From positions 992,001 through 1,056,000 of the forward strand of contig NZ_CP014213.1 in assembly GCF_003268005.1 (NCBI RefSeq): a stretch of DNA of 64,000 nucleotides, in the 5' to 3' direction. The stretch's first letter is position 1. Each line of letters opens with the position of its first letter. This document shows positions 28,101-58,346 of this stretch, one piece after another. The position numbers and the translations under genes were made by a program. The stretch is from Methanosphaera sp. BMS. GTDB lineage: Archaea > Methanobacteriota > Methanobacteria > Methanobacteriales > Methanobacteriaceae. Below the pieces are notes generated by a model. That model made no database searches and was not told the origin of the DNA. It worked only from the letters and a program-made list of their open reading frames with translations.

Positions 28101-31100
28101 TGCCGACACTTGAATAACTTACGTTAACCGATGATTGACCGGAGGATACGTTGCAGATAGCTAATATTGTACCGTTATCATTTGTAAATGTCACACTTCC
28201 ATCCTTAACCATATTACCCATAATGTCCTTTACGGTTGCAGTGACAGTTACCTCCTGGTTTACTAATGCAGTCCTTGAGGTTAAGGTTATCCTGGTATCT
28301 ATCATGGATACCTCGAGCGTTGTGCTGTTGCTTCTCTGTAGCTTATTAGGACTCGTGTATACTGCAACAACACTTACATCATCCATTGTCTGAGGAGTAT
28401 AAGCAAATGTTGCCTTTCCACCTTCAAGTATAACATCATTATCCATATTGTTTACCGTTAACATGATGCTTCCATAGTTTATGGAATTTCCGTTCAAATC
28501 CGTTACCCTTACTATGATATCGCTTGGCTTATATATTGTCAGATTTCCACTTATTATTACTATACTGTTTAATATATTGTTGTCATGTACGCTGGTTGTT
28601 GATTCTGTAACCCTTACGGATGCATCACCCTGCTGTTTGTTAGCATATAATCCATTATTTGTCACGTTTGCATTGATGGAATTGGCTACCTCCACCGTAT
28701 ATTCACTGGTAACATTGATGTAATTGTTATCCACCAGTACATCACGTGAACTATCTATCAATAGTCCTTCACCTATATTGGAGGTAAACTCCGAATTTGT
28801 TATATTGGCATTTGTAGCGTTGACAAATGTCAGTATGCTTGCATTGTCTGTTGATTTTATCTCTACGGTTATGTTATTTATGATTATGCCTGTTATATCG
28901 GATAGGTTTATGGCCGTTATATTTGATCCTTCAAGCATATAGAGTGAGTTTTCAATCGTTATATCCTGTACTTTATCCGCATCTATGGCTTTTATATTAT
29001 TTGTGTTTATATTTGCTTCAATACCAGAGAGTGTTATGTTACCGGTTTTATCCGGAGCTGTTTGAGTAATGTAGGCAGCATAGGATAAGTCAGTAGCGTT
29101 AATTGTTATTTTACCCGATATCTCCGTATTTATTGAGTCTGATATGTAAATTGGATAAGCGGTATTTGTTGAACTTATGCTAATGCTGATATTTGATGCA
29201 CTCGTATTTGTAGTTTTATTCAGAATCAATCCATAGGCCTTGTCAGCACCGGCCACGTCAATGTGGGTATCTTTTATGAGAGTATTTGCTATGTTTTTTC
29301 CCGATTTTTCTGACTCTACGACTATGGCATATATTGATAAAGGATCAATTTGATTGTTAGTGCTTTTTACTGTTATGTTAACATCATTTACTGTGTTATT
29401 GTCATCTGATATGAGTATTGTCCTTGTTTGCGTGTTGGTATTTACATCTATTTGTGTATTGACTATTAAGTTATCCTTGGACTCGAGGATGATTGTTTCG
29501 GAGGGAACGTTGACATTTTTAATCTTTAATCCGTAAAGCAATACATGTGCCTTTGATTTGACGTCTATTGTAGAATTGTATAATGTGAAGCCTCTAAGGT
29601 TATTGAAGATTACATTGGCATCATTGAATATGAAATTCTTATTTTTGACATTGCCTGCAAGCATTAGAGATATGTTGTTCCGGATTACGTCACTTTTTGC
29701 TGTTCCATCAGGATTGAATAGGTTTGCATAGTTGCTGTCCGTTAATTCAAATGTTACCAGGCTGACATTTATCTTATTTAGAAGTACGTTAGCCTTAGCC
29801 TTTATTGTTATTGTACTATTCGTAAATGTGTAGTTTTTCGGATTTGTAAAGTTAAGGGTTCCATTGTCAAATATGAATCCTTTGTTATGAATGTTACCCA
29901 CTACAACTAGCGTTATGTTGTCATGAATCATGTCAAGTTTAAATATGGAATTATCGTCGAATAATCTGTCATAATTAGCATCGGTTAATTCATAGATAAT
30001 CCTGTCGACTTTGATTTTATTTAATGATACCGTGCTATTTGCCTTGACCTCTACCGTTGAATTGGTAAATGTATAACCCCTTGGATTGGTAAAGTTAACC
30101 CTTCCATTAACAAATGTGAAATTCCTGTTATGAATATTACCCGCAACAACAAAGGTAACGTTATCACCAACAGTATCCACCCCAACCGTAGCATCAGCAT
30201 TAAACAACCTACCATAACTACCATCGGTAACCTCATAAATTATCCTATTTACTTTTATGTTATCTAAGGACACATTGGCATTGGATTTAATCTCCACAAT
30301 GGAATTTGTAAATGAATAATTCCTTGGATTGGTAAAGTTAACCGTCCCATTAACAAATGTGAAATTCCTGTTATGAATATTACCCGCAACAACAAAGGTA
30401 ACGTTATCACCAACAGTATCCACCATAGGCGTAGCATCAACATTAAACAACCTACCATAACTGCCATCAGTTACCTCATAGATTATCCTATTTACTTTTA
30501 TGTTATCTAAGGACACATTGGCATTGGATTTAATCTCCACAGTGGAATTTGTAAATGAATAATTCCTTGGATTGGTAAAGTTAACCCTTCCATTAACAAA
30601 TGTGAAATTCCTGTTATGAATATTACCCGCAACAACAAAGGTAACGTTATCACCAACAGTATCCACCTTAGGCGTAGCATCAGCATTAAACAACCTACCA
30701 TAACTGCCATCGGTAACTTCATAGAGTATCCTATCCACCTTGATTTTATTTAATGATACCGTGGCATTGGCTTTGATTTCTACTGTGCTACCGGTCAGGT
30801 TATATCCCTTTGGATTTGTGAAGTTTACCTGTCCGTCGGTGAATATGAACTTCTTATTCTTTATATTGCCAGTTACTTCCAGTGTAATGTTATCGGGCAG
30901 GTAGCTTTTTAATGTTCCGTCGTTATTGAAGAATCGCTGGTAGTTTGATTCGTTTAATTTGAAGACTTTCATGTCATTGTTTATGATGTAGTCCTCATAG
31001 AAGGGGTAAATGTATATGCTATCGTTTCCGGTCAGATTATTTGTCATCAGATAGTTATCTGATATGTTAAGTCCCCTTACCTTTTTGTCCACTGTTATCG

Positions 31101-32601: not shown

Positions 32602-33296
32602 CACATAACCCCCTAACTTATTATAGAATAAACATCTTTTTATTAATGTTTGTTAATCATTATATACTATATATGGTTTTAAAAATATTAATAATATTAT
32701 ATTGACCGATTGAAAAAAAGCTTTAATCATTTATAAAGTTGAAAAAAAGAGTAAGAGAAGTAAAATATCAAGTGGAGGTTATAAAAGGGTATGATTGTAT
32801 TCATCATATACCTAGTTGAGTCGTATCCCCTGATAGGCATACGACTTGTTTTACTTTAATCATGAAAATTTGCCTATTGTATGGATGAAATCCTCTTTAC
32901 ATTATGGGTATTTGTATCCGAAACTCATTTCATCATCAACAACTGTACGGCTGACTTTGATGTTAATTCCGGGTGCAATTATTATTTTCATAATCTTCTA
33001 TTAAATAGGCAGTATAAACTCTTGATTTATCAATATTATTGACCTATAAGTCAATTTTCCATAATCATATTTTTGTTCAATACTAGCCGGTGGGTCGGGA
33101 GTATACAAAAATAGAGTTTGATGAGAATGGGATTATATGATAAAAATAGGCCATGTTATAGATTAAAAGCTAAAATGATTAAATTATGATGAGTATATTA
33201 TGAGTAGAAGTTTAAAATAAAAGATTTTTAAAAAAAAGGAATGTTAAAAAGAAAAAAATAGTTTGATGAATTATTGATTTATGTTAATTCACTGCT
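32602..33296. other. Intergenic region with a small hairpin
   Basis: About 690 bases. An 8-bp perfect inverted repeat (AGTCGTAT at 32819-32826, ATACGACT at 32839-32846) can form a stem-loop. A 29-codon minus-strand frame at 32902-32991 starts MKIIIAPGINIKVSRTV but lacks a strong ribosome-binding site; it may be a relic. The remainder shows nothing supported. Confidence 0.4.
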
Positions 33297-38816: not shown

Positions 38817-41800
38817 TTATTTAATCAGTTTTTCATATATGTCCATGTATTCATCGGTCATCTCTTGTGTTGTTTTTATATTTATCCCTGTGATTTCATT
38901 TACCCTTTCGGCGTATGCATCTTCGTCGGCTATTATGTCAAGTATGTCCCGGTATGCCCTTTCGGCATCCATGTCTATGAAGAATCCTCCGCCGTGTTCA
39001 TGTACACGTTCACCCAGTGCTCCAATGTCTATCGTCAGTACCGGTACTCCACATGACCAGCTTTCTGTTAGCGTGTGACAGTACGTTTCGGGCCATATCG
39101 AGAGTATTCCAATAAAGTGTGGGTTCACCTCTCGGACTATCTCTTCGAAGTCGCTTCTGTCATAGAAGCCGTGGTATGTTCCATAGTCTTCAAGGTCTTC
39201 TGATCCGTAGATACTTCCCATGTAGTGGAATTCAAGCCTGTCATCAACGTCCAACTGTTTTATGCCTTTAATTAGTTCATAGCCTTTACTTCGTCCGATA
39301 TGTCCCGGAAAGAGTATTCGTACGGGTTCATCATCCTTGAGTGGCATGACTTCTATTTCCGATGGTGTTTGAAGGTCCCTTCCATGTTCTATGAATCTGA
39401 AGTCCTTATCCATCAGTTGCGGATACGCCTTTTTGTACATGTCACATACGCACTGTGACGGTGCCTGGAACACATCACACAAATTGAGCATTTCACTTAC
39501 CTTTTTGTGCCATTTTTGTTTGTATAACTTTAATATTGGCAGGTTTAATCCGGCAGCTACACTGCATTGACCGTTGTTTATTGAGTCCGGGTTATATTCA
39601 CTGCATATGCCGGCACAGTAGTTTCCATTGTCATCAAGCAGGTTGTGTGATGGGCATATGTAGTAGAAGTCATGGAATGACATTACCACAGGTAATCCCA
39701 AGAGTTTTGAAAGCTCCACCAAGTCGAAGCTGCTGTGGATTAAGTGCATCACATGCACTATGTCTATCTTTAGGTTAACCAGTATGTTGAAGTAGATCTT
39801 CTTCAATTCATCGATTGTTGTATCCATGGCCGTGTAGGAGTATTCCTTTGGCCATTTTCTTAACAGCTGCAGGTATTTTACGAATTCCTTGTCACCGTCC
39901 TTGTGTTCTATGTCATTGTTTCCCAGACTGTTGTATTTGTAGAGTGCTATGTCCTGTTTACCAGTTACTATGAGGTAGGTGTCCATGTTTTTGTCAACGT
40001 TTTTCATTATGTCCATGGTGGTGTGGAGTGCTCCTCCTGATCCGTTGTGTATTGCATAGAGTATTCTTTTCCTGTTGGACTCCTTGGTGGTGGAGTTTAT
40101 TGCATCATCTATGTTGTTTCGTATCTTCCTGAAGTTTGTTGAGGATATGAATTCATTTACGCGTTTTTTGTAGTCGGGGTATTTCATTCGCAGTATCTGT
40201 GAGTGCTTTTCTATGAGTTTATCCTTTTTGGTGCTGAAGGATACACTTCTTTTATGGTAAATGTATACTGATGGGTCTATTACATGTTTCCAGCCTTTGC
40301 GTAGCAGTCTCATGCAGAAGTCATTTTCTTCTCCGTATCCCATTCCGTATATTTCATCGAAAAATCCCACGTCATTTATGGCCTCTTTCTTGATGTACAT
40401 GCAGAATCCATTGGCGGTAGGTGTCTGTACTATAGAGTCATCGGATGCCTTTTCAACTATGTTTGCCATGTCGTTTATCGTAAATTGGTCAGGGATGTCG
40501 TTTGCCTCGGGCTGTGGTACGGAGAATGCTCCCGCATTGTTTGATACGGCAGTCACCGTTGCTATTTTCTGGTTGGTGTATGCCTTGTATTTTAGTTTCT
40601 GCAGCCATTTTGGCGTTACTATGGTATCGCTGTTTAGCAGTACCACGTCATTGGAGGTGTTCATGAATGCCTTGTTAACGTTTTTTACAAATCCCTGGTT
40701 GACATCATTATGTATGACTGTGATGTGGGAATAGTCCCTGTATGACTCGAGAAGGTCGTGTATTCTTTCATCGGTTGATGAATCGTTTATTAAAAGCAGT
40801 TCATAGTCTATCGTTGTGTTTTCCAGTACGCTTTCTATACATGATTTTGTCTCCTCGTATGCATTGTATATCGGTATGACAACGCTTGTTTTCCTGTGGA
40901 ATGCTTCACATATGGTGTTTACCTCTTCATTGTCATATTTGAGGTGATACCATGAGTCATATTGTGTGTTGACCTTTCGCATGAAGTATCCATTATTTAA
41001 GTGGTCATGTATCTGGAAGTATTCGTTCTTGAATATGTAACTGTCGGTTGCGTCATATGTGAAGTTGTTTTTGTAGCAGGCGTAGTTGAAGCTTAGCTGA
41101 TCGCGGTAGCTTCCCTCGATTATCTGGCCAAACCAGTCCTCCATCACACCTATCACGTCGGGGTCGTTGTGCTTTCTGAATAGTATTCCCGAACTGATTA
41201 ATCCGTTATGTTCAGGGTAGCCTTCATCCCTGTATCTGTTTATCTGTGGGATGATATTGTCCATTTCATCCTTTTTGAGCCTGATGCATTCATCTGCCTC
41301 ATCATAGATACAGTCCCTCTGTGGATGTTTGAATGCCAGTAACTTATTGTTGACAGAGTACTTGTTTATAAAGTCACGTATGTCTCCTATTATCTCGATG
41401 TTGGTATCTATCCATAAGGAGTAGTCATAATCGGAGAGGTATTTGTGGGCCAGTATCTTGTACATTCGTGCCGTTTGTGTAGCATTCAGGCCTTCACTTT
41501 CTATTGGCCTTATATCCCAGAAGTCTGACTTTAAGAATGGATTGTCGGTAAAGCATATATAGTCAAAGCCCTCTATTCTTTCCTGTGGTATTAACGGCTC
41601 GTCATATGTACCTGTTACCGCCGTGTATACCACCATCCGTTTACCTGTGAAGTCTATGTTGGATGATTTTTTGCTTATAAGATTGTCGAATGAGTCTACC
41701 GGGTTTAGCAGTTTGTCGCATGCCGGCAGTATAGTGTCTATCGTATGTGTGGATTCGGTTATCTGTTCTATTTCAAGGTATTTTATCATCCTGTTATATA

Positions 41801-44800
41801 TCAATACTTCACTGTTTGATGAGTGATATAATCTGCGTGCATTCTTCAGGTATACTAGGTCTATCTTTAGATTTACGAGTATGTTGAAGTATAGCCTGAA
41901 GAACCTGTCGCTGTCATATGAAAAGTCATACTCCCACTGGTTAAATATTGGACTCATCTGTGGGGTATACTTGAATAATCTGATGACGTTATCCCCTACT
42001 GCCAATACAATCGTATCATATTTTCTTGACAGTCTAAGAAGCATCAAGTTGTCAATATCCGCCTCGTCATCTATCAGTTCGGTTATGCATAGTATTCTCT
42101 GTGAGTTTATGCCCCTTTTGACGTTTTCTGTTATGTCATCAAGTGTCTTTTGCACCTCTAGTGATGATGCAAAGTTATCCCACTTGTCAAATACCTGAGG
42201 GTAGCGTTCGAGTATTATTTCTTTGTTTTTGCTTTTTAGTTTGTCTGTGTTTTGCTTCTTGAATGATGCGTGTCTTTTATGATATACAAATACCGATGGA
42301 TTTCTTATGTTTATCCATCCGTTGGCTGCAGCCCGGCTTGTAAAGTCTGTTTCTTCACCGTAGCCCATGCCGAATATTTCATCGAAGTATCCTATATTCT
42401 CGAGTACTTCCCGTTTGATGTACAGGCAGAAGCCGTTACCTGTTGGACTTAGCAGTTTGTCGGTATTTGCCAGCTTGTTTACCTGGTATGAGTAGTCATT
42501 TAACACTTCCTGATTGTCATCAAGTCCAAGCTTTTCTATTGACAAGTCGGATGAGTTACTTATGGGAGTTACGGTTGCTATCCTGTCATCAGAGTATGCA
42601 CTTGTCACCAGCCTGGATAGCCATTTCGGCGTTACCTTGGTATCGCTGTTTAACAGTACAACGTCATTTGATGACTGCTTCATGCCCATGTTCACGTTCT
42701 TGACAAATCCCTGGTTGGACTTGTTGTGAATTACCCTGATAAATGATATGTCCTCTAGGCTGTCAAGCAATGTTTCTATTCGTTCATCACTGCTTGCATC
42801 GTTTATAAGTATCAGTTCATAGTCCACTTGTGTATTTTCAAGTACGCTCCTGATACATTCCCTGGTTTCTTCATATGCATTGTATATCGGTATTATTATC
42901 GATACCTTCCGGTGTAGTGCTTTGATGATTTTCTTTGACTCGAGGATGTCATATTTTGAGTCATAGTTTTTGACGTAATCCTCTTTTGGTATATGGCAGA
43001 ATCTGCCTTCATGTATTCCATTGTTAAGATAGTGGTATAATGGGTTTATATGGCTGTTTTTTACGTCCCCGTATACCCTTAGGTACTCGTTTGTTGAGAA
43101 GTATTTGGATGGATTCTTTCCGTTGTCTGCCCCTATGAGTATGTAGTGTAGTATCGGATCTATATCAAGTGCCTCTACTTCGGGATTTTCCTCCATGTAG
43201 TAGTATTCATCGAAGTAATCGGACTCGTAGATTACATCGTACCAGTCACATATATTGGAGTCATATGCTGCCATATCCGATAGTTCTAGTTTTGCTCTCT
43301 TGAATGGCCTTTTTTCTTTATGTCCGTTTTGTGTAAAATGTATGACAGGGTCTATGCCATATGTCTTCAGGTCAAGGTTTAATCTGTAGTATTCCTTCTT
43401 GTCGAAGTATTTGCTGGTCGGGTAATCCTCATATCTTCCCTTTCTTATGTAGTAGTCTATTGCATCATCATTGTCTGATAGGTTGGGGTTGTGTTCTATG
43501 TAGTATATTGGGTCAAAGTACTTTGAATTGGAGAGTATTGAATAGTCTTCAAGGTATTTTTCATCAATAGACTGATAGTTGTCCTCCAGGTTTTCGGCAT
43601 GAATTGAATCATCACCATTTAGTATGTATTCTACAAGCGGATTGATGTGTGAATCGTTAGGATATCCGTGTCTTGCCATGTATTCTATGCTGTTGAAGTT
43701 TTTGTTTGGATTGTTTTTATGTGAATTTTCCATGAAGTGCATGATTGGATCTGTAAATTCATCCAATTCATCTGCATAGATTTCCGTGTAGTAGTTGGCA
43801 TCAAAGAGTCCTGATTCTTCAATCAAACGATATTCTATGCTTTCGCTTATGTCATCGGTTAATTGTTCATCGATGAGAATGTCCTCCTTGAAGTTGAGTA
43901 TGTAATGATACAGTGCATTGGTATTTGTAAGTGCGTGCTTTTTCTTGTATTGGACCGTGTCAAATATTTCGGATGGATTGTATCCAAGTGCGTCTCCCGT
44001 TGTAAGGTAGTGTTCCAATAGGTCCACATCACCCTTTATATTATACTGTCTTCTATAGTATTCATCATCGAATAACTTTTCCTCACGGATTATGTTATAT
44101 TCCCTAGTGTCGGATATAACGGCCTCTTCAGGCTGGTCATAGTCCTTTTTGGAGTATTTGTATTCGTTATAGGCCACGTCATAGATGTAGTTGTCCAGCG
44201 GATTGTCAAACAAATCATGTGTTGACTGGTAGCTGTTTGAATCGAATTCATCATTCAGGTAGTAATTGTTTTTATAGCCCACTTCAACGTAGTTTAGGAT
44301 TTCATCATCATAAAATCCCTTATCCTGATGTTTGTTGTACTTTTCATAGTCCAGGAGGCCGTATTGCTTTATGTGGTTGTATGGGTAGCTGTCCTGTATG
44401 TCGGGTAGAATGTTTTTATCATATAGGGTGTTTGAATTTGTCCTGTCATCCTCCGATTTTAGTATGTAGTGTATCAATGGTATTTCATCTGTTAATTCAT
44501 AGTTGTCGCTGTAGTATCTGCTGTCAAACTCAGCGTTTGGATTATAATCCTTTAGGTATCCTATTGAGAGGTAGTGGGTTATTGTATCGGTCATAACGTG
44601 GTATTTATCCCTGTAATACTTCCTGTCAAAGAGTCCTGATTCGTCAATTAATGTGTATTCATGGGTATTTGTTATGTCCAGGCCAAACTCTTCGTGTGGT
44701 GGCAGCGGAAGCTTACCCTCGTATTGGCCCTTAAGCAGGTAGCTGACAAGTGGGTTTGCGTTGTCATCCAGGAGGTATCTCTGTTTATACCAGTTGGTGT

Positions 44801-45461
44801 TGAAGTTTTCTGATGGATTGTAGCCTAGGGTTGCTCCTACCAGCAGGTAGTGGCTTATGGCATCCAACTTGTCATCATCCATATACCTGTCGGTGTAGTA
44901 GTTGGCATTAAAGAGCTTTGATTGGCTTATCACGTCATAGCCCGGACTTAATCTGATATCACTATCCAGGTTAAAGAGATTTCCATAGGTGATGTTTGTG
45001 TCTATTATGTTCTTGATGATATCCAGGTTGGCCAGTACCTGCATGAGGTATTGTTTCTTTAGGGTTAATTCATAGAGTTCTTCATTGTCCGATTGATGAG
45101 TTCGGGATATGTCCGTATAGTATTTGTCCATCCGGTCATTTAGTGCCTTTTGGATATGATAATTCCTATTCAATTGCCTATTCTTATTTAGTGTAGCGTC
45201 GTATAAACCTTCCATTTTATATGCTTTCTTCTCAAGGATATCCATCCGCCTTGACAGTTCATCACGGTAACGGTTTAGTTGGTTGTTGATTCGCCTTAGG
45301 CTGTTTAGCTTCTTATCATTTCTGGCGTTGTCATCTATTAGTTCATTTATGAATCCTTCAAGATTATCAATTACTTCATCATCATATTCTATGGATGAAT
45401 CATTCAAGCTATCCCGTAGATTGTTTAGATAAGTGTTTAAGCTTATTTTATCATTTTTCAT
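38817..45461 (-). CDS. Giant multi-domain glycosyltransferase (GT2 + DUF616 + GT2 + GT4), downstream copy
   Basis: The 2214-residue protein starts with a coiled coil (about 1-150). Residues about 150-830 are repeated units of the form LFDxxYYxxxY...HYLxxGxxxxxNPSxxFDT, found in fused GT2 proteins. A GT2 domain starts near 852 (VSIIIPIYNAYEETRECI; LLNSDTKVTP; GMGYGEETDF). Near 1272 comes a DUF616/TOD1-like domain (MVVYTAVTGTYDEP; LWIDTNIEI). A second GT2 starts near 1524 (LLNSDTIVTP; GMGYGEENDF). A GT4 domain follows from about 1797 (RILFPGHIGRSKGYE; ETYCHTLTE with the Glu-x7-Glu pair). No membrane segment is seen, so it is cytoplasmic and probably assembles a surface glycan on a lipid or protein carrier. 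ATG 45461 is preferred to the TTG at 45467. Confidence 0.88.
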   Translation of the reverse strand: MKNDKISLNTYLNNLRDSLNDSSIEYDDEVIDNLEGFINELIDDNARNDKKLNSLRRINNQLNRYRDELSRRMDILEKKAYKMEGLYDATLNKNRQLNRNYHIQKALNDRMDKYYTDISRTHQSDNEELYELTLKKQYLMQVLANLDIIKNIIDTNITYGNLFNLDSDIRLSPGYDVISQSKLFNANYYTDRYMDDDKLDAISHYLLVGATLGYNPSENFNTNWYKQRYLLDDNANPLVSYLLKGQYEGKLPLPPHEEFGLDITNTHEYTLIDESGLFDRKYYRDKYHVMTDTITHYLSIGYLKDYNPNAEFDSRYYSDNYELTDEIPLIHYILKSEDDRTNSNTLYDKNILPDIQDSYPYNHIKQYGLLDYEKYNKHQDKGFYDDEILNYVEVGYKNNYYLNDEFDSNSYQSTHDLFDNPLDNYIYDVAYNEYKYSKKDYDQPEEAVISDTREYNIIREEKLFDDEYYRRQYNIKGDVDLLEHYLTTGDALGYNPSEIFDTVQYKKKHALTNTNALYHYILNFKEDILIDEQLTDDISESIEYRLIEESGLFDANYYTEIYADELDEFTDPIMHFMENSHKNNPNKNFNSIEYMARHGYPNDSHINPLVEYILNGDDSIHAENLEDNYQSIDEKYLEDYSILSNSKYFDPIYYIEHNPNLSDNDDAIDYYIRKGRYEDYPTSKYFDKKEYYRLNLDLKTYGIDPVIHFTQNGHKEKRPFKRAKLELSDMAAYDSNICDWYDVIYESDYFDEYYYMEENPEVEALDIDPILHYILIGADNGKNPSKYFSTNEYLRVYGDVKNSHINPLYHYLNNGIHEGRFCHIPKEDYVKNYDSKYDILESKKIIKALHRKVSIIIPIYNAYEETRECIRSVLENTQVDYELILINDASSDERIETLLDSLEDISFIRVIHNKSNQGFVKNVNMGMKQSSNDVVLLNSDTKVTPKWLSRLVTSAYSDDRIATVTPISNSSDLSIEKLGLDDNQEVLNDYSYQVNKLANTDKLLSPTGNGFCLYIKREVLENIGYFDEIFGMGYGEETDFTSRAAANGWINIRNPSVFVYHKRHASFKKQNTDKLKSKNKEIILERYPQVFDKWDNFASSLEVQKTLDDITENVKRGINSQRILCITELIDDEADIDNLMLLRLSRKYDTIVLAVGDNVIRLFKYTPQMSPIFNQWEYDFSYDSDRFFRLYFNILVNLKIDLVYLKNARRLYHSSNSEVLIYNRMIKYLEIEQITESTHTIDTILPACDKLLNPVDSFDNLISKKSSNIDFTGKRMVVYTAVTGTYDEPLIPQERIEGFDYICFTDNPFLKSDFWDIRPIESEGLNATQTARMYKILAHKYLSDYDYSLWIDTNIEIIGDIRDFINKYSVNNKLLAFKHPQRDCIYDEADECIRLKKDEMDNIIPQINRYRDEGYPEHNGLISSGILFRKHNDPDVIGVMEDWFGQIIEGSYRDQLSFNYACYKNNFTYDATDSYIFKNEYFQIHDHLNNGYFMRKVNTQYDSWYHLKYDNEEVNTICEAFHRKTSVVIPIYNAYEETKSCIESVLENTTIDYELLLINDSSTDERIHDLLESYRDYSHITVIHNDVNQGFVKNVNKAFMNTSNDVVLLNSDTIVTPKWLQKLKYKAYTNQKIATVTAVSNNAGAFSVPQPEANDIPDQFTINDMANIVEKASDDSIVQTPTANGFCMYIKKEAINDVGFFDEIYGMGYGEENDFCMRLLRKGWKHVIDPSVYIYHKRSVSFSTKKDKLIEKHSQILRMKYPDYKKRVNEFISSTNFRKIRNNIDDAINSTTKESNRKRILYAIHNGSGGALHTTMDIMKNVDKNMDTYLIVTGKQDIALYKYNSLGNNDIEHKDGDKEFVKYLQLLRKWPKEYSYTAMDTTIDELKKIYFNILVNLKIDIVHVMHLIHSSFDLVELSKLLGLPVVMSFHDFYYICPSHNLLDDNGNYCAGICSEYNPDSINNGQCSVAAGLNLPILKLYKQKWHKKVSEMLNLCDVFQAPSQCVCDMYKKAYPQLMDKDFRFIEHGRDLQTPSEIEVMPLKDDEPVRILFPGHIGRSKGYELIKGIKQLDVDDRLEFHYMGSIYGSEDLEDYGTYHGFYDRSDFEEIVREVNPHFIGILSIWPETYCHTLTESWSCGVPVLTIDIGALGERVHEHGGGFFIDMDAERAYRDILDIIADEDAYAERVNEITGINIKTTQEMTDEYMDIYEKLIK

Positions 45462-45476
45462 AATCAAAGGCCCCCA

Positions 45477-48400
45477 TTAATAGTTCAAGTAATCCTCATA
45501 TACTTCCAGGTAGTCCTGTCCCATCTGTTTTGTTGTTTTGAATTTTATGTTTGTTATTCTGCTTGCCTTTCTCAGGTATTGTCTTCTGTTTCGTGATATC
45601 TTTATTATCTTATCATATGCCTCTTTCGGGTCATTGTCTATGAGGAATCCTCCACCGTTGACTTTTATTCTTTCACCTACGGCTCCAATGTCAACCGCAA
45701 GTATCGGCACTCCCGATGCCCATCCTTCAGTCAGTGTATGACAGTAGGTTTCAGGCCATATCGAGAATATTCCTATAAAGTGTGGCTTTATCCTATGCAC
45801 TATATCCGAAAATTCACTTCTTTTATATACCCCATGATTTACTCCTATCTTCTCTAGATCATCATGTCCACCTATGCTTCCCATGTAATGGTATTCTAGC
45901 CTGTCATCGGTGTCGTATTCTTTTATCTTTTTAATTAATTCATAGCCCTTGGTGTATCCGATGTGACCCGGAAAGAGTATTCTTATCTTGCCCTTATTGT
46001 TTATTGGAGTCACGTATCTTGTAGAATCCGGCGTTTGCAGATCCCTTCCATGTTCTATTATCCTGAAGTCGCCATTCTCCAGCTGCGGATAGAACTTGGT
46101 GTATAACTGGTATGCCGATTTTGATGTTGTGATGAATGCTTTTATGGTTTTAAACATCTCTGATACCTCATCACGCCACCAGTGCACTATGCTTCTTGCC
46201 TGTGGTATGTTCAGCTGGCCTATTATGTTACATTGTCCTCCGAGGGTGTTGAACTCATATAACGGCGGACATATTCCTCCACAGTAGTTTTTGTTGTCAT
46301 CTACCAGGTTGTGTGATGGACATATGTAGTAGTAGTCATGGAATGAGAGTATTACGGGTATTGCCAGCTTTGCCGCTACTTTCGGCAGGTCAAAGGTTGA
46401 CATTATCAAGTGTCTTATGTGTATTATGTCGACGTTGAGGTATACGAGTATGTTGAAGTATATCTGTTTGAGCTGTTTGTCGGTTGTATTAAGTAGTGTG
46501 TAGCTGCCCTTTAGCTTCCATGTTCTTAAATGGTCAAGGTTATTTTTGAATTCCATGTCAGGGTTTGTGTCAATGCTTGTTGACTGCGGGTTATATCTGT
46601 AGAGTTCCACCTTGCTTGTTGATGTTACCAGCAGATATGCGTCCATGTGTGGATTTATGTTTTTCATCAGCTCAAGGTTTGTATGCAGTGTTCCACCCAC
46701 TCCCTCATGCAGTACATATAATATTCGTTTTTTAGTATTTTTATTGGCTAATCTATATTTCAGGTTTCTTTTTAGATTATTTAATTCTATTGACTTATTA
46801 AATTCACTGATTGAATCCTTATATTCATAGTATCTTGTAAGAAGTATCTTTTTATCGTGTGCGTATGGATTTATATCCTCATTTGTATGGGCACCGGCAG
46901 TTTCAAGGTATTCATATAGATTTTTTGTGTTTGCATCGTTGTATACATATGATGATGAGGCCATCGTATTGTGCCAGCCCTTCTTGTCAAGGCGTAATGA
47001 ATAGTCAATAAGGCAGTACTCCCAAGTATCATATTCCACGTCAAAGAATCCCACGGCATATATGGCATCCTTTTTGATGTATACACAATCTCTATTGACG
47101 ACAGGTACAATAAGCATTCCGTCCCTGGCGGATTGTTCAATACATCCGGAGTCAACTATAACAGTATCTTCGCTAAAGTCATGTCCTTCAACATAATGTA
47201 ATGTGTTATTGGATACTGGACTTACAGTTGCAATCATCTTGTCGGTGTATGCCTTGATTATTAGCTTCTGCAGGTATTTTGGTGATACGAGAGTTTTTTC
47301 ATCCAGTATCAGTACGTCATTTACGGAGTTGTTGATTGCCATATTTATCTTGGAAGTTGTAGCAGAATCCGGAAGATTTAAGATTTTTACAGCCCCGTTT
47401 GATGAGTATTTGTCGTTTAGAATGTGGTAATCCTCATCGTCATCACATACCAAGATTAACTTATAGTCAAGTGTCGTGTATTTAATCACGCTGTCAATGG
47501 CTTTTATTGAGCCTTCATCAAAGTCCTCTATCGGCATGATAATGGATACTTCATTAAAGTTGTCCAGTATATCTTCAACATCATCCGTCGTGTATTTAAG
47601 GTCATAGTCCATATCATATTCTATGTCAACGTTTCTTAGTACGAATCCCTTGGATAGGTGATCATGAAGCTGCATGTATGAGTTTTTGATGATGAAGAGA
47701 TTTGCACAGTCATATTCAAAGTCATTCTTGTAGCAAACGTAGTTGAAGCTTAGCTGATCACGGTAGCTTCCCGTAAGCAGTTGGCTAAACCAGTCCTCCA
47801 TCAGCTTGATTACGTCGGGGTCGTTATGATTTCTAAATAGCACTCCTGAGCTTATCAGTCCATGGTGTTCCGGGTAGGAGTCATTTCTGTAGGCATCAAT
47901 CTGCTTGTTTATTACTTCAATGTCAGTATCCTTGGCCGATGCTATGCATGTATCTGCCTCATCGTAGATGCAGTCTCGTTCTATATGTCTTATGGCAAGC
48001 AGCTTGTTGTTTTTTGAGTACTTGTGGATGTAGTCTATTATGTTGTCTGTTAACTCTATGTTTGTATCTATCCACAGAGAATAATCGTAGTCTGAGAGGT
48101 ACTTGTGGGCAAGTATCTTATAGCTTCGTACCTTACGTATGTCATCCAGGTCGGATTCGTCCATCAATCGTATTTCCCAGAAGTCTGACTTCAGGTTGTG
48201 ATTGTCAGTAAAGCATATGTAGTCGAAGTCCTCGTTTACATAGCCCGGTATTACAGGTTCGTCATAGCTGCCTGTTACGGCCGTGTATATGACCATTCTC
48301 TTGTCGTTGAAGTTTATCTGATTTAGTTTGTGATTTATGACGTCTTCGTAATCTGCATGTGTATTCAGGAGTTTTTCTGCCTCCAGCATGAATGACTTGT

Positions 48401-51400
48401 CATAGCAGACTGTTTCATGCAGTTCCTCCACTTCAAAGTGATGCTTGAATTCTAGTATTGAGGTGAACTTCCTATTTGTAGGGTGGAATAGTCTCTTATG
48501 CGTCTTGGTGTAGATTAAATCCACATTAAGGTTGAGGAGTATGTTTATATATACACTGTAGAAGAAGTTCGTATCGTATGAGTAGTCGGTTTTTATGTTA
48601 TCAATCAATGAGAAGTGACCGTTTTTATAGCTAAAGAGGTAGATCTTGTCGTCATCTATTGCAAGTATGTATGTCTGATACCTGTTTGACAATCGTCTGA
48701 TGTCATCGTCCACATTTGGCCGGTTGTCTTCCATTTGTGTAAAGCAGAGTACCCTTTCATATCTTTTATTGTCAAATGAAATGTCGGATATGATTTTATT
48801 TATATCATCAACAGTGATATCATTGTATTTGTTTGTTTCAAATTCGTTTTCATCATTATCCCCTGTGTATATGAATGTTGATGAATCCGTAATTGAAATG
48901 TAACCTTTTTCATATAAGTTTCTTGTCAGACTATCGATGTTTTCTGCCTTTTTAATGTCTACAGAACTTAATGCTTCTTTTTTAATGTATATGCAGTGTT
49001 TTTCGGGAGTTTGTCTTTCAACATATATTGATTCCAGCTTTTGGCCAAGATGTCTTGACTTATCGTTAAGGTTGTTGATGTTATTTTTTTCCTTGTCATA
49101 TAGTGAGGTTAGCTTGTCCTTATTGGATTGTGTTAGCAGGTCACTGTTATTTGTAATGGCAGATACCGTTGCCGCTTGTCTGTTTGCATATGCACCCTTA
49201 ATCAGTTTTACCAGCCAGTGTGGCGTGAGTATCACGTTTTCATCCAAAAGTACAACGTCTGTACTCAAAGAGGATATGCATTCCATTAGGACATTGTCAT
49301 TATCGCTCAAAGCATCGATTATTTTTATATTTTCTATTTTATCCAATCTTTCCAATTCACTTAACAATCGGCTGGTGTTATTGTCTTGTTCTGATTCGTC
49401 AACAGCGTTGAGTATTATGAGTTCATAGTGGTTGTTTGTATTTTCCAGTATGCTTTGTAGTGTTATCTTGAATTCATCATAGTGACCCGTTACCGGCAGT
49501 ATGATTGTTGTCTTTTCCTTTAGCTTATCAAGTATTGTAATTGATGTGGAAAAGTCATTCTTTTCGAGTATGTTGTTTACATAGTACTCTTCCGGCAGGA
49601 ACATGAAGCGGTTTTCCTTTTCTCCACGACTTAAGTAGTGGTATAATGGATTGAATCCCGTTCTTTTGATGTCCGGATTGTATTTCAGGTATCGTTGTGT
49701 TGAAAAGATTGCTGATGGATTCAAGTTTAAATCCACCCCATATTTCAGGTAGTGAATTATGGAGTCTTCACCAGTGGTCAATAGGCTGGGATTGTGCTTC
49801 ATGTAATATGATTCGTCAAATAGGTCTGATTCATATATCATGTCATATAATTCATACATCTGTGGATAATCTTTAAATTCATCCACTGAGAGTTTCGGCC
49901 TTTTATATCGTCTTGACTCGTTTATTCCACTTTTGATGAAGTGTATAAGGGGATCCACACCTGCTTTTTTCAAGTCCTGGTTGAAGTTGATGTAGCTTTC
50001 TATGTCAAAGTACTTGCTTGTCGGTACGGATGTCTTATCCTCATGTGTGAGATAGTATTCTATTGCATCCTGATATTCTTTTATGTCTGGGTTATGCTTT
50101 CTGTAGTAGTCCTCGTCAAAGTATATGCTTTTGTTTAAAAGATTGTAGTCATCCGGGTATTGTTTTGAATTCTTATAATCATATTCATCGTCTTTGATTT
50201 GTGATTTGATTATGTAATCGACGTAATCGTTGATTGATTCAACACCAGGTAATCTTTCGATGTCCACGTCAACCGTCGGGTTTCTTTTCTGATTGAATCC
50301 GTTGGTCATGTATTCCTCGAGCAAATCATCGGCTTCCACTTCGTAGCTATTGGAGTAGTAGCATGCATCAAAGTATTCCGTGTTATCAAGCAATGCATAT
50401 TCAATAGTATCCTTCATGCTTGTCTTTTCGGCTTCGGTGGCTAACTCCGGCTTATTGTTATATATGTAGTCAACCAGTGGGTTTATCCTGTTTTTTATTT
50501 GCGGGTTGATTTTGTAGTAATTGTCGGTATTGAAGTTTTCGCTAGGATTTCTTCCCTCGTTTATTCCAAACTGGAGGTAGTGACTGATTGGATCTGATGC
50601 GTTTTTCCATACGTCACCATATTTCTTGAGATAGTATCTCTTATCGAAGAGTTCATCATCCGATAGTATGGTGTATTCTACGCTGTCCTTGATATCCAAG
50701 TCCAACTCCCTCGAATAATCATAGCTTGAATCATATTCCCTGGATAGCTTTTCATAGACGTATTGGTATACGTCACTTGTAGGATTGTCCTGGATGTAAT
50801 CCTTATGAAGTTGTGATATGTAGCGGTTGTTTGATTCGTTCAGAATGTAGTCTTCCATCAAGTCATCCCGGTAGGAGTTGTACTGGGTAAAGTACCATGA
50901 CAGGTCAAATAAATTGCTTTCATCCAGTATGTGATATAGCTGTGAATCGCTGAGGTCATATTCCTCTTCTTGAGCATAGTTGTTTACGGCCTCTTTTGTT
51001 AATCTTGTATTGCTGTTTAACACGTAGTTTAATAGTGGACTTGGCTCGTAGTAGGAGTAGGTTTTTGTATACCATTGGACGTCGAAGTCTTCTCTTGGCT
51101 TGTATTTTCTTTGATATCCGACTGTCATGTAATGGGCTAACGGATCCATCCCCTCATCCACATCATATGTATCCATGTAGTAATCGGCGTCAAAGAATCC
51201 TGATTCGTCTATTAGATGATATTCCTGCGTATCGGCTATTGACGTGTCGGGACATTGAGAGTAATTTGTTGGCAGGTTATTGTTTTTAATGCCGCAAGTC
51301 AGGTATTCAACCAATGGATTGACTTTCATATCATCATTCAGGTATTTTTTTCTGTACCACTTGGTATTAAAGTCTTCACTTGGATTATAATCCAGTGAAG

Positions 51401-52019
51401 CTCCCGTTTTAATATAGTGAGCTACCTCATCAATACTTTCATCGTTTAGATACCGGTTGTTGTAGTAGTTTCTGTCGAAAAGAGGACAGTTGTCAATGAG
51501 CCTGTAGAATGGGCTTGATTCTATCCGGTCTATATTCAATGCATCGGATATGGTGTAGGTATCGTCTTCAAGGGAGTTTATTATCAAGGTTAGTTTTTCC
51601 AGTACTCTTTCATAGTATCCTATGTCTTTTTTAAGGTCTGATATCGTATCGTGATAATCAATGTTATCTTCCCTTATCGTGCTTATCTTTTCATCAAGGT
51701 CGTTGTTGGAGTCGTTTAATGAGTTATTTATCCTGGTTAACCTCTTGTTATCATCCAGGATTTGATTGTATTTTTCAAGTAGCCTCTGATTTTTATTTAA
51801 TTTATTGTTTAGGTTGGATTTGAATTCTTTGATGAATAATTCCAGCTTATCATTATCCTGTTTCAGTCCTTTTAATGTTCTTGTGCTATTGTTATTCTTA
51901 TCATATAATGACAATATGATTTTTGAAAATTCTTCAGCGTTTTCATCATTTGTTAAATCTTTAAAATCATTTAAATATGAAATAAGAATGTTACGTTCTA
52001 TATTACTAATAAAAATCAC
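45477..52019 (-). CDS. Giant multi-domain glycosyltransferase paralogue, upstream copy with degenerate GT2 domains
   Basis: The layout equals that of the downstream gene 15 bases away: coiled coil, YY/NPS repeats, GT2-like (from about 835), DUF616-like (MVIYTAVTGSYDEPVIPG; LWIDTNIEL), GT2-like, GT4 (RILFPGHIGYTKGYE; ETYCHTLTE). Both GT2-like domains have lost their sugar-nucleotide motif: LLNSDTxVTP is replaced by LLDENVILTP and LILDEKTLVSP, and GMGYGEExDF is missing. DUF616 and GT4 look intact. The frame opens with GTG 52019, which lies within AGGTGAT; the spacing of that ribosome-binding site points to ATT at 52010, giving SNIERNILISYLND, which aligns with the paralogue's N-terminus. The two genes very likely form one transcript, and the proteins may pair through their coiled coils. 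Confidence 0.85.
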   Translation of the reverse strand: MIFISNIERNILISYLNDFKDLTNDENAEEFSKIILSLYDKNNNSTRTLKGLKQDNDKLELFIKEFKSNLNNKLNKNQRLLEKYNQILDDNKRLTRINNSLNDSNNDLDEKISTIREDNIDYHDTISDLKKDIGYYERVLEKLTLIINSLEDDTYTISDALNIDRIESSPFYRLIDNCPLFDRNYYNNRYLNDESIDEVAHYIKTGASLDYNPSEDFNTKWYRKKYLNDDMKVNPLVEYLTCGIKNNNLPTNYSQCPDTSIADTQEYHLIDESGFFDADYYMDTYDVDEGMDPLAHYMTVGYQRKYKPREDFDVQWYTKTYSYYEPSPLLNYVLNSNTRLTKEAVNNYAQEEEYDLSDSQLYHILDESNLFDLSWYFTQYNSYRDDLMEDYILNESNNRYISQLHKDYIQDNPTSDVYQYVYEKLSREYDSSYDYSRELDLDIKDSVEYTILSDDELFDKRYYLKKYGDVWKNASDPISHYLQFGINEGRNPSENFNTDNYYKINPQIKNRINPLVDYIYNNKPELATEAEKTSMKDTIEYALLDNTEYFDACYYSNSYEVEADDLLEEYMTNGFNQKRNPTVDVDIERLPGVESINDYVDYIIKSQIKDDEYDYKNSKQYPDDYNLLNKSIYFDEDYYRKHNPDIKEYQDAIEYYLTHEDKTSVPTSKYFDIESYINFNQDLKKAGVDPLIHFIKSGINESRRYKRPKLSVDEFKDYPQMYELYDMIYESDLFDESYYMKHNPSLLTTGEDSIIHYLKYGVDLNLNPSAIFSTQRYLKYNPDIKRTGFNPLYHYLSRGEKENRFMFLPEEYYVNNILEKNDFSTSITILDKLKEKTTIILPVTGHYDEFKITLQSILENTNNHYELIILNAVDESEQDNNTSRLLSELERLDKIENIKIIDALSDNDNVLMECISSLSTDVVLLDENVILTPHWLVKLIKGAYANRQAATVSAITNNSDLLTQSNKDKLTSLYDKEKNNINNLNDKSRHLGQKLESIYVERQTPEKHCIYIKKEALSSVDIKKAENIDSLTRNLYEKGYISITDSSTFIYTGDNDENEFETNKYNDITVDDINKIISDISFDNKRYERVLCFTQMEDNRPNVDDDIRRLSNRYQTYILAIDDDKIYLFSYKNGHFSLIDNIKTDYSYDTNFFYSVYINILLNLNVDLIYTKTHKRLFHPTNRKFTSILEFKHHFEVEELHETVCYDKSFMLEAEKLLNTHADYEDVINHKLNQINFNDKRMVIYTAVTGSYDEPVIPGYVNEDFDYICFTDNHNLKSDFWEIRLMDESDLDDIRKVRSYKILAHKYLSDYDYSLWIDTNIELTDNIIDYIHKYSKNNKLLAIRHIERDCIYDEADTCIASAKDTDIEVINKQIDAYRNDSYPEHHGLISSGVLFRNHNDPDVIKLMEDWFSQLLTGSYRDQLSFNYVCYKNDFEYDCANLFIIKNSYMQLHDHLSKGFVLRNVDIEYDMDYDLKYTTDDVEDILDNFNEVSIIMPIEDFDEGSIKAIDSVIKYTTLDYKLILVCDDDEDYHILNDKYSSNGAVKILNLPDSATTSKINMAINNSVNDVLILDEKTLVSPKYLQKLIIKAYTDKMIATVSPVSNNTLHYVEGHDFSEDTVIVDSGCIEQSARDGMLIVPVVNRDCVYIKKDAIYAVGFFDVEYDTWEYCLIDYSLRLDKKGWHNTMASSSYVYNDANTKNLYEYLETAGAHTNEDINPYAHDKKILLTRYYEYKDSISEFNKSIELNNLKRNLKYRLANKNTKKRILYVLHEGVGGTLHTNLELMKNINPHMDAYLLVTSTSKVELYRYNPQSTSIDTNPDMEFKNNLDHLRTWKLKGSYTLLNTTDKQLKQIYFNILVYLNVDIIHIRHLIMSTFDLPKVAAKLAIPVILSFHDYYYICPSHNLVDDNKNYCGGICPPLYEFNTLGGQCNIIGQLNIPQARSIVHWWRDEVSEMFKTIKAFITTSKSAYQLYTKFYPQLENGDFRIIEHGRDLQTPDSTRYVTPINNKGKIRILFPGHIGYTKGYELIKKIKEYDTDDRLEYHYMGSIGGHDDLEKIGVNHGVYKRSEFSDIVHRIKPHFIGIFSIWPETYCHTLTEGWASGVPILAVDIGAVGERIKVNGGGFLIDNDPKEAYDKIIKISRNRRQYLRKASRITNIKFKTTKQMGQDYLEVYEDYLNY

Positions 52020-55070: not shown

Positions 55071-58000
55071 ATGAAAAAAATAAAAGAAGTACTGTTATTT
55101 GTCATAGTATTAGTACTCTTAGTGGGAGTTGCAACGGCAAATGAAGTATCCACCGAAGCAGACACACCCACTAGCGATACACCCCTAATACTTGAAAAAG
55201 CAGTACAAGAAAAATCAACAGTATCACCAAGTGATACAAATACAGTAGAAAATATAAAACAAAAAACGAATACAAATCAGACAAAAACCAAAAAAAACAT
55301 ACAAAAAAACACAAATAACCTAAAAAAAGATACAACAGTAGACTCATGGACTACACTTAACAGTACAATAACTGATGCAACAGAAGATACAACAATAACA
55401 CTAACAGGAGAAACATATACAGCTAACGGTACAATTACTTTTAATCAGGCGATAACAATTACCATTGACGGTAACGGACAAACCATAGACGGAAACCAAA
55501 CACAAATATTTTATATTAATAGTGGCTCTTCAGTAATTCTTAAAAACATCACAATAATAAATGCCAAAAACACTGATGGATATGGTGGAGCAATAGACAA
55601 CGGTGGAAACTTAACCATAATAAACAGCACACTCAAAAACAACACAGCAAAGTATGGAGGTGCAATAAACAACAACAACGGTAACATAACAATAATAGAC
55701 TCCAACCTCAACAACAACACAGCAACAGGACAATATGGATATGGAGGTGCAATATACAACAGGGGTAATCTTAACATAACCGACTCCAACTTCACACAAA
55801 ACAACGCAACAGGACAAGAAAATGGATATGGAGGAGCAATATACAACAATGGTAATCTTAACATAACACAATCCAACCTCACACAAAACAAGGCAACAGG
55901 ACAAAACTATGGAGTTGGAGGAGCAATATACAACGCATATGGTAATCTTAACATAACACAATCCAACCTCAAACAAAACAACGCAACAGGACAAAACAAT
56001 GGATATGGAGGAGCAATATACAACAGGGGTAATCTTAACATAACACAATCCAACCTCACACAAAACAACGCAACAGGACAAAACTATGGAGTTGGAGGAG
56101 CAATATACAACGCATATGGTAATCTTAACATAACACAATCCAACCTCAACAATAACACTGCAACAGGACAAACAGATGGATATGGAGGTGCAATATATAA
56201 CGCATATGGTAATTTAAACATTGACAATTCAATACTTGAATACAACAACGCAACACATGGAGGAGCAATAAACAACTATAATGGTAACATAACCATAAAC
56301 AACACCAATCTAACATATAACAACGCAACACATGGAGGAGCAATAGTTAACAATGGTACAGGTAGTAATTTAACAATAATAAATTCCAACCTCACACAAA
56401 ACACAGCAACAGGACAAGGACAATATGGATATGGAGGTGCAATATACAACAATGGTACTCTTAACATAACACAATCCAACCTCACACAAAACAACGCAAC
56501 CGGACAAAAATATGGATATGGAGGTGCAATATACAACAATGGTACTCTTAACATAACACAATCCAACCTCACACAAAACACAGCAACAGGACAAAACAAT
56601 GGACATGGAGGTGCAATATACAACGGTGGTAGTGGTACTCTTAACATAACACAATCCAACCTCACACACAACAACGCAACAGGACAAAACAATGGACATG
56701 GAGGTGCAATATACAACAACGGTGGTAATCTTACCATAACACAATCCAACCTCACACAAAACACAGCAACAGGACAAAACTATGGACATGGAGGTGCAAT
56801 ACACAACTATGCGGGAACTATTAATATAACCAATGCCAATATCACCAATAACACCGCAACAGCACAATATAGTGAGGGAGCTGGAGGTGCAATATACAAC
56901 AACGGTGGTAATCTTACCATAACAGACTCCAACCTCACACAAAACACTGCAACAGGACAAACATATGGACTTGGAGGTGCAATACTCAACACTGGTCGTG
57001 GTAATCTTACCATAACACAATCCAACCTCACACAAAACAAGGCAACAGGACAATATGGAGTTGGAGGTGCAATATACAACAACGCTGGTACTCTTAACAT
57101 AACACAATCCAACCTCACACAAAACAAGGCAACAGGACAATATGGAGTTGGAGGTGCAATATACAACAGCAGGGGTACTATTAACATAACACAATCCAAC
57201 CTCAACAACAACACAGCAAGCACTAATGGAGGTGCAATAGAAAACTATGGTTTGCTAACAATCATACACTCCATACTGGAAAACAACAAAGCAGGAAATC
57301 CTAACGATGGAACTGGTCGTGGAGGAGCAATATACAACGATTATAGGTCATTAAATATTTCTAACTCCACATTAACAAACAACACTGCAAACAAAGATGG
57401 AGCAGCAATATACAACAATCATGGTGATGTGGTTATTGAGGAGAATAATTTCATAGCCAACAACGCACCCAAAAACGGTGCACCAATTAAAGTAGCAGAT
57501 GATAGTCAAAACGTTAAAATAGATTATAATATAGGTGATGATACCACGCTATACAATAATACAATATACACAAATACAACCGATGATGGTAGTGCTCGTG
57601 TTGTGGGTAATGTGTTCTATGATGAGAAGGTTAACACAACACTTAACATATCATCCAATAACACTAATCCATATGTATATAATGTTATTAATTTAACATT
57701 CCACTTAACAGACGTGAATAATAAAAACCTATCAAATCAGCAAATAATCATAAAAATTAACAATCAGGAACAGACACTTCAAACAAACCAATATGGAATT
57801 GCGTACCTGGAATACATACCAGTAAACAATCAAACAATCACAGTAAACGCGTCACATCCTGAAACAACAAGTTATAATTACTCAACCAGGAGTATATTAA
57901 TACCTGTTGAAAAAATAAACACAACACTCAATATAAGCAAAAGTGATGAGACGGTATATGTTAATAAAACATTTAACATAACTGTAGAATTACTTGATGT

Positions 58001-58346
58001 GGATAAAAATGGAGTAAAAGATGCCAACATAACACTAACAATAAAAAACACAACAGATACCCTACTAACATATAATAACCTAACAGGTGAAAACAGTAAG
58101 TTAATATATCCTGTAACTGTAAATAGCAATGACACGATAACAGTTGAAGCAAAATATGCAAATGAATCCACAGTATATAAAGATGCTAGTGCTACTCTTG
58201 AATTTAATGTAGAATATGAACAGTTAAACACGACAATAGAAGCTACAATAAACAATACACAGCCATACGTAAATGATACAATAAACATAACATACACACT
58301 AAAAGACCAACTAGGATACACACTACCCGGACAAAAATACTCGTAA
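55071..58346 (+). CDS. Adhesin-like protein with polymorphic-membrane-protein-type GGAIYN repeats (intact N-terminal part)
   Basis: A signal peptide (VLLFVIVLVLLVGVATA) and a Lys/Thr spacer precede a beta-helix. Residues about 180-800 contain about twenty GGAIYN...NLTQNNATGQ units of 20-30 residues, comparable to the GGAI/FxxN repeats of chlamydial Pmp proteins and found in many methanogen adhesins. Ig-like domains start near residue 855 (NTTLNISSNNTNPYVYNVIN). The frame ends abruptly at 58346 in the middle of an Ig-like domain (LKDQLGYTLPGQKYS) and coding-like sequence continues beyond in other frames. The 1091-residue product would therefore lack the C-terminal half, and its status as a functional protein is doubtful. 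The leader is shared with the relic at 18600. Confidence 0.75.
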   Translation: MKKIKEVLLFVIVLVLLVGVATANEVSTEADTPTSDTPLILEKAVQEKSTVSPSDTNTVENIKQKTNTNQTKTKKNIQKNTNNLKKDTTVDSWTTLNSTITDATEDTTITLTGETYTANGTITFNQAITITIDGNGQTIDGNQTQIFYINSGSSVILKNITIINAKNTDGYGGAIDNGGNLTIINSTLKNNTAKYGGAINNNNGNITIIDSNLNNNTATGQYGYGGAIYNRGNLNITDSNFTQNNATGQENGYGGAIYNNGNLNITQSNLTQNKATGQNYGVGGAIYNAYGNLNITQSNLKQNNATGQNNGYGGAIYNRGNLNITQSNLTQNNATGQNYGVGGAIYNAYGNLNITQSNLNNNTATGQTDGYGGAIYNAYGNLNIDNSILEYNNATHGGAINNYNGNITINNTNLTYNNATHGGAIVNNGTGSNLTIINSNLTQNTATGQGQYGYGGAIYNNGTLNITQSNLTQNNATGQKYGYGGAIYNNGTLNITQSNLTQNTATGQNNGHGGAIYNGGSGTLNITQSNLTHNNATGQNNGHGGAIYNNGGNLTITQSNLTQNTATGQNYGHGGAIHNYAGTINITNANITNNTATAQYSEGAGGAIYNNGGNLTITDSNLTQNTATGQTYGLGGAILNTGRGNLTITQSNLTQNKATGQYGVGGAIYNNAGTLNITQSNLTQNKATGQYGVGGAIYNSRGTINITQSNLNNNTASTNGGAIENYGLLTIIHSILENNKAGNPNDGTGRGGAIYNDYRSLNISNSTLTNNTANKDGAAIYNNHGDVVIEENNFIANNAPKNGAPIKVADDSQNVKIDYNIGDDTTLYNNTIYTNTTDDGSARVVGNVFYDEKVNTTLNISSNNTNPYVYNVINLTFHLTDVNNKNLSNQQIIIKINNQEQTLQTNQYGIAYLEYIPVNNQTITVNASHPETTSYNYSTRSILIPVEKINTTLNISKSDETVYVNKTFNITVELLDVDKNGVKDANITLTIKNTTDTLLTYNNLTGENSKLIYPVTVNSNDTITVEAKYANESTVYKDASATLEFNVEYEQLNTTIEATINNTQPYVNDTINITYTLKDQLGYTLPGQKYS
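55590..57420 (+). repeat. Degenerate 66-84-bp tandem repeats of the adhesin beta-helix
   Basis: Units resembling CTTAACATAACACAATCC followed by AACCTCACACAAAACAA and GGAGGTGCAATATACAAC recur about twenty times. Several neighbouring units are identical over tens of bases, so copy number is likely to vary between strains by recombination. Confidence 0.8.

Follow-up and report, generated by a model that had tools for sequence, protein, structure and literature searches.

Two adjacent genes of Methanosphaera sp. BMS, contained in a window of 64,000 nucleotides (the whole stretch of DNA that was analysed), are predicted to encode one glycosyltransferase chain with four enzymes, P1, and a partner with the same domain order, P2, in which both GT2 units would be catalytically dead. 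On balance, we find it probable that P1 is a cytoplasmic multi-glycosyltransferase dedicated to a surface glycan and that P2, its tandem duplicate, pairs with it as a pseudo-GT2 partner subunit.

Architecture of the tandem pair

The P1 frame covers 38817..45467 on the minus strand and would yield 2216 residues from a TTG codon, with the ATG at 45461 as the better start. Given this ATG, the two genes are neighbours 15 bases apart, just as the initial annotation had placed them. The common order that it proposed (coiled coil, repeats, GT2-type, DUF616 (PF04765), GT2-type and GT4) is also found in both chains, as listed below, where the heptad values come from a home-made score of heptad periodicity against shuffles and not from COILS.

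45477..52019, minus strand: P2, upstream gene, 2180 residues; GT2a and GT2b degenerate, DUF616 and GT4 retained
51522..52016, minus strand: P2 N-terminal coiled coil, about 165 residues; 135 heptad-like residues (shuffle mean 35)
49608..51482, minus strand: P2 repeat region, the 34-residue YY/NPS unit detected 10 times
48807..49586, minus strand: P2 GT2a, predicted dead; NSD replaced by DEN, IND by LNA, GEETDF lost; GT-A fold in the model
48267..48806, minus strand: P2 linker, remnant of a GT4 N-terminal half, included in the profile of 16 linkers
47667..48266, minus strand: P2 DUF616/TOD1_MUCI70, conserved
46827..47621, minus strand: P2 GT2b, predicted dead; NSDT replaced by DEKT, GEENDF by EYCLIDY
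45480..46766, minus strand: P2 GT4, E-x7-E (ETYCHTLTE) intact
45462..45476, minus strand: 15 bases separating the stop codon of P2 from the ATG of P1, with a G-rich tract resembling a ribosome site (gggggcc)
38817..45461, minus strand: P1, downstream gene; motifs intact in all four transferase domains
44952..45461, minus strand: P1 N-terminal coiled coil, about 170 residues; 105 heptad-like residues (shuffle mean 34)
43002..44915, minus strand: P1 repeat region, the 34-residue unit detected 12 times
42135..42932, minus strand: P1 GT2a; IND, NSD and GEETDF intact
41595..42134, minus strand: P1 linker, remnant of a GT4 N-terminal half (hhalign probability 98.5, E 3e-15, no control above 27)
40935..41594, minus strand: P1 DUF616/TOD1_MUCI70, from Pfam
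40155..40919, minus strand: P1 GT2b; IND, NSD and GEENDF intact
38820..40094, minus strand: P1 GT4, E-x7-E intact

Pfam recognises in P1 two strong GT2 domains (PF00535, 3e-46), both with profile matches above the cut-off and with NSD and GEExD motifs, together with DUF616/TOD1_MUCI70 (1.5e-12) and GT4 (PF00534, 2e-7). The last two families are also detected in P2 (1.6e-12 and 4e-7, respectively), the PF04765 matches reaching 47.9 bits in P1 and 47.8 in P2 for a cut-off of 21.4, and PF00534 exceeding its own in both proteins, where the E-x7-E motif reads ETYCHTLTE. The DUF616/TOD1_MUCI70 family is annotated as glycosyltransferase-like. In Arabidopsis it has been predicted to be GT-A-like (PMC3522684), and no publication on DUF616 in methanogens was found in the literature collection searched. 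Besides P1 and P2, no other DUF616 genes were found in the 2.87 Mb genome. Identity between the two proteins is 42% overall, rising to 63% in DUF616 and 50% in GT4 and falling to 34-35% in the GT2 domains and 23% in the coiled coil. A hydrophobic stretch suggestive of a membrane span was looked for in both chains and none was found.

The long YY/NPS repeat region that had been noticed corresponds to a 34-residue unit with the consensus LFDTEYYLKNYPDVKKSGINPLVHYLLYGYKEGR, and the announced coiled coil is borne out by a heptad periodicity in excess of shuffles in both proteins. An AlphaFold model of P1 comprising four repeats, GT2a and the linker (mean pLDDT 83.9) has GT-A matches in the PDB, and the four repeat copies adjoining GT2a are helical in it.

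Degenerate GT2 domains in the upstream copies

The domain search and the structure prediction proposed at the outset recovered DUF616 in both proteins and GT-A folds for the modelled GT2 domains of P1 and P2, with two GT2 modules recognised by profile in P1 and none in P2. In P2, the Pfam search gave no GT2 match for GT2a and a best match to PF13632 for GT2b that stays below the cut-off of 27 bits (E=0.024, 14.9 bits), and neither domain carries the catalytic motif set IND, NSD and GEExD. The GT2a-to-GT2b model of P2 (mean pLDDT 79.3) nonetheless contains GT-A folds, built from an alignment with intact GT2 rows that favours finding this fold, and its best PDB matches are two-domain glycosyltransferase polymerases such as chondroitin polymerase.

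The loss of motifs was followed in a table and alignment of 24 GT2a and 23 GT2b domains. IND, NSD and GEETDF of GT2a are lost in all four upstream copies of tandem pairs (P2 and three orthologues), with replacements that vary by species (DEN, DKN, DRN, GGD), and the GT2b motifs are lost in three of the four (P2, G112 and G124). The double loss is not universal, the GT2b of G113_up being intact. All downstream tandem copies retain the GT2a and GT2b motifs, as do the single-copy orthologues with the exception of the G125 GT2b; this latter protein (L047:6339-10604) also has a truncated GT4 and has decayed independently. A 1130-residue repeat-GT2-GT2 chain of G108 (L036:14539-17928) has a second GT2 without NSD as well. 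From these motifs, GT2a and GT2b of P2 are predicted to be catalytically dead. Their loss is a strong, not a conclusive, sign of inactivity, because GT-A enzymes without DxD exist. The initial proposal of up to four catalytic units in each protein stands for P1 and its single-copy orthologues, where the four-enzyme reading holds, and fails in P2, devoid of a clear Pfam GT2 match and of the motifs; since both of its GT2 modules are predicted dead, the pair would have about six active units and not eight.

At the level of divergence, the analysis relies on NG86 values and on the comparison of upstream with downstream copies between the same genome pairs, dS being saturated. Upstream copies are more divergent in GT2a (odds ratio 3.0-4.4) and GT2b (3.2-4.6), with p at most 2e-10, whereas DUF616 and GT4 show no difference (0.74-1.23, p at least 0.18). 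Fast divergence in the upstream copies is confined to the GT2 domains, and DUF616 and GT4 of P2 evolve as slowly as those of P1. The presumed dead GT2 domains have dN/dS values of 0.12-0.31, which are rough owing to the saturated dS, and zero stop codons, arguing that these domains are constrained and not part of a decaying pseudogene.

Distribution, origin and related chains

Searching relatives, as had been suggested, gave a DUF616 match in 19 of the 20 Methanosphaera genomes examined (the source genome and 19 others), and P1-like four-domain chains, complete or interrupted by contig ends, were found fused across the genus, the single-copy ones in a conserved locus. Tandem pairs occur in G000, G112, G113 and G124, always adjacent and with the P2 type first (4/4 species), and G126 has a doubled GT2a-DUF616 part within one chain in place of the pair. 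Where the downstream copy of G112 seems broken in frame, the assembly has NN gaps and the breaks are not real, and an 11,995-residue frame in G108:C44, taken for a giant relative, was discarded as mostly masked N (32,000 of 60,000 bases). Dead copies with long branches distort the GT2a-only and GT2b-only trees, and the tree of DUF616 and GT4 was used instead. It unites all eight tandem copies in one clade (100/100), and a single duplication is the simplest reading. The split between upstream and downstream copies is not firmly resolved: the four downstream copies group with 80/80 support, and the AU test does not reject a grouping of the four upstream copies as one clade (p 0.085).

A long N-terminal coiled coil also appears to be limited to the tandem clade among the proteins checked. 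Six tandem-clade proteins have a complete N-terminus, G112_up and G113_up being interrupted there by contig ends. Counted from the stop-to-stop frame, 187-243 residues precede the first detected repeat in these six, and in five of them the heptad pattern exceeds shuffles (p 0.01 or less; 0.11 in G112_dn). Three of the single-copy orthologues checked have the first repeat at 57-69 and the others at residue 21-31, and the heptad pattern ahead of it is not significant. This clade-specific coiled coil suggests that P1 and P2 pair, because its presence coincides with the duplication, a coincidence that amounts to one evolutionary event.

By hhalign, the linker between GT2a and DUF616, overlooked in the initial annotation, is the remnant N-terminal half of a GT4: the match has a probability of 98.5 (E 3e-15), and no other domain exceeds 27. 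No match was found to the C-terminal, donor-binding half of GT4, and DUF616 comes next instead. The chain would thus go back to a GT2-GT4 unit that was doubled, the C-terminal half of the first GT4 being lost and its place taken by DUF616.

GT2-GT4 fusions are widespread in bacteria (about 700-1700 residues; Proteobacteria, Firmicutes and others). They have the same GT2-GT4 order and are homologous across the GT2b-GT4 half (26-43% identity), several of them with the 34-residue repeat at their N-terminus, ahead of GT2-GT4, but they lack the second GT2 with the GT4 remnant, DUF616 and a tandem pseudo-copy. A chain that includes DUF616 also exists in bacteria: a 1917-residue protein of a Rhodospirillaceae MAG (L102:8702-14452) joins DUF616, GT2 and GT4 in the order seen here, and differs in an N-terminal methyltransferase, an extra C-terminal GT4 and a single GT2 (methyltransferase-DUF616-GT2-GT4-GT4). 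A Tenericutes MAG has a GT2-GT4 gene beside a separate DUF616 gene, with an RgpF gene further along. Chondroitin polymerase K4CP (PDB 2z86), which is the best structural match to the P2 model and ranks first among the sequence matches of P1, also has two GT2 GT-A domains in one chain, but it has two domains only, both active, and neither DUF616 nor GT4. In the same genome, a 2553-residue protein (L138:4201-11862, at about 1.118-1.126 Mb of G000:C1) resembles P1 and P2 in carrying many transferases, five GT2 and a C-terminal CDP-glycerol glycerophosphotransferase, without DUF616 or GT4; a nearby 1372-residue chain (L139:416-4534) combines two GT2 with a C-terminal domain of the same type. The bacterial DUF616-GT2-GT4-GT4 chain and this six-enzyme chain make the architecture less unusual than first claimed. 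It has been reported that M. stadtmanae gained many glycosyltransferases from bacteria (PMC3445992).

Separate genes in related genomes had been named as grounds against the idea that the chains could build a complete repeating unit as a single assembly machine. This objection applies in part: within the same family, a sister genus (L060) encodes the DUF616, GT2 and repeat-GT4 families, with the same repeat, as separate proteins of one gene cluster, although the chains of Methanosphaera are fused. Split forms of these parts lie in glycosyltransferase clusters. A dedicated glycan cluster was sought around the P1-P2 pair and not found, its neighbours being housekeeping genes, an IS605-type transposase and adhesin-like genes. 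Conserved genes flank the locus: to one side NFACT and a cation-efflux gene, and to the other EMC6_arch, an asparagine-synthase-like gene, an ACT protein, homoserine dehydrogenase, NADAR and phosphoglycerate mutase. The transposase (34973-36355 of the window, IS605 OrfB-type, with a weak Cas12f1-like TNB match) sits within this otherwise conserved gene block. Two large, repeat-rich adhesin-like frames of one sequence group lie at 25132-32604, with 243-base repeats, and at 55071-58346 on the plus strand, with internal repeats of about 90 bases.

Proposed role of the pair

From knowledge of its enzyme families, which fit a surface-glycan role, we infer that P1 would add several sugars in succession, through GT2, DUF616, GT2 and GT4, to a surface glycan precursor or a glycoprotein. 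P1 should act in the cytoplasm, because its four domains have intact motifs and no membrane span, and its product, whether precursor or protein, would be displayed at the surface later. P2 would be a tandem duplicate of P1 with both GT2 units turned into pseudo-enzymes and with DUF616 and GT4 constrained as in P1; their conservation suggests that it contributes DUF616/GT4 activity, while its dead GT-A domains may serve binding or scaffolding. Pairing with P1 would occur probably via the N-terminal coiled coil, a joint suggested by its coincidence with the duplication. A more demanding version, which we put forward only tentatively, makes P1 and P2 an obligate hetero-oligomeric glycan synthase, in which the coiled coil was gained with the duplication and the dead GT2 domains of P2 became acceptor-binding or allosteric modules.

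It is rather unlikely, in our view, that P2 works as an independent enzyme with vestigial GT2 domains, transferring through DUF616 and GT4 to make a shorter or different glycan without forming a complex with P1. The maintenance of DUF616 and GT4 at the rate of P1 while the GT2 domains drift would agree with such independence, as would a stepwise loss, GT2a first and GT2b later, which fits gradual disuse. There is also precedent in Klebsiella O3 serotypes, where mutations in a multidomain glycosyltransferase change the product (PMC10629545). However, the dead domains have an unbroken frame, a dN/dS far below 1 and a predicted fold that is kept, the coiled coil marks the tandem clade, and the genes are adjacent with P2 first in all four species.

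We likewise regard as unlikely that the pair glycosylates adhesin-like surface proteins and not a polysaccharide, a target that would be compatible with P1 acting together with a pseudo-GT2 partner. Adhesin-like genes are present near the pair (25132..32604 and 55071..58346) and adjoin the gene in some relatives, for instance L071 and L070. Nevertheless, Methanosphaera genomes contain many such genes, the direct neighbours are housekeeping genes in most relatives, and the split relatives are located in polysaccharide-type glycosyltransferase clusters. That both proteins are four-enzyme machines, the GT2 domains of P2 having a divergent metal-independent chemistry, is very improbable: GT-A folds are predicted and metal-independent GT-A families exist, but three separate catalytic motifs were lost together in GT2a and their species-variable replacements (from DEN to GGD) are unlike a new conserved active site.

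Multi-enzyme glycosyltransferase chains were already known; the loss restricted to the GT2 domains of one tandem member, stepwise over four species, forms a natural series that could show how a pseudo-enzyme subunit arises. If the hetero-oligomeric arrangement is true, this would be an archaeal pseudo-glycosyltransferase subunit derived from a four-enzyme chain by tandem duplication, with intermediate stages preserved in living species. In addition, P1 and P2 are candidates for genes behind the surface glycans of gut methanogens, about which little is known.
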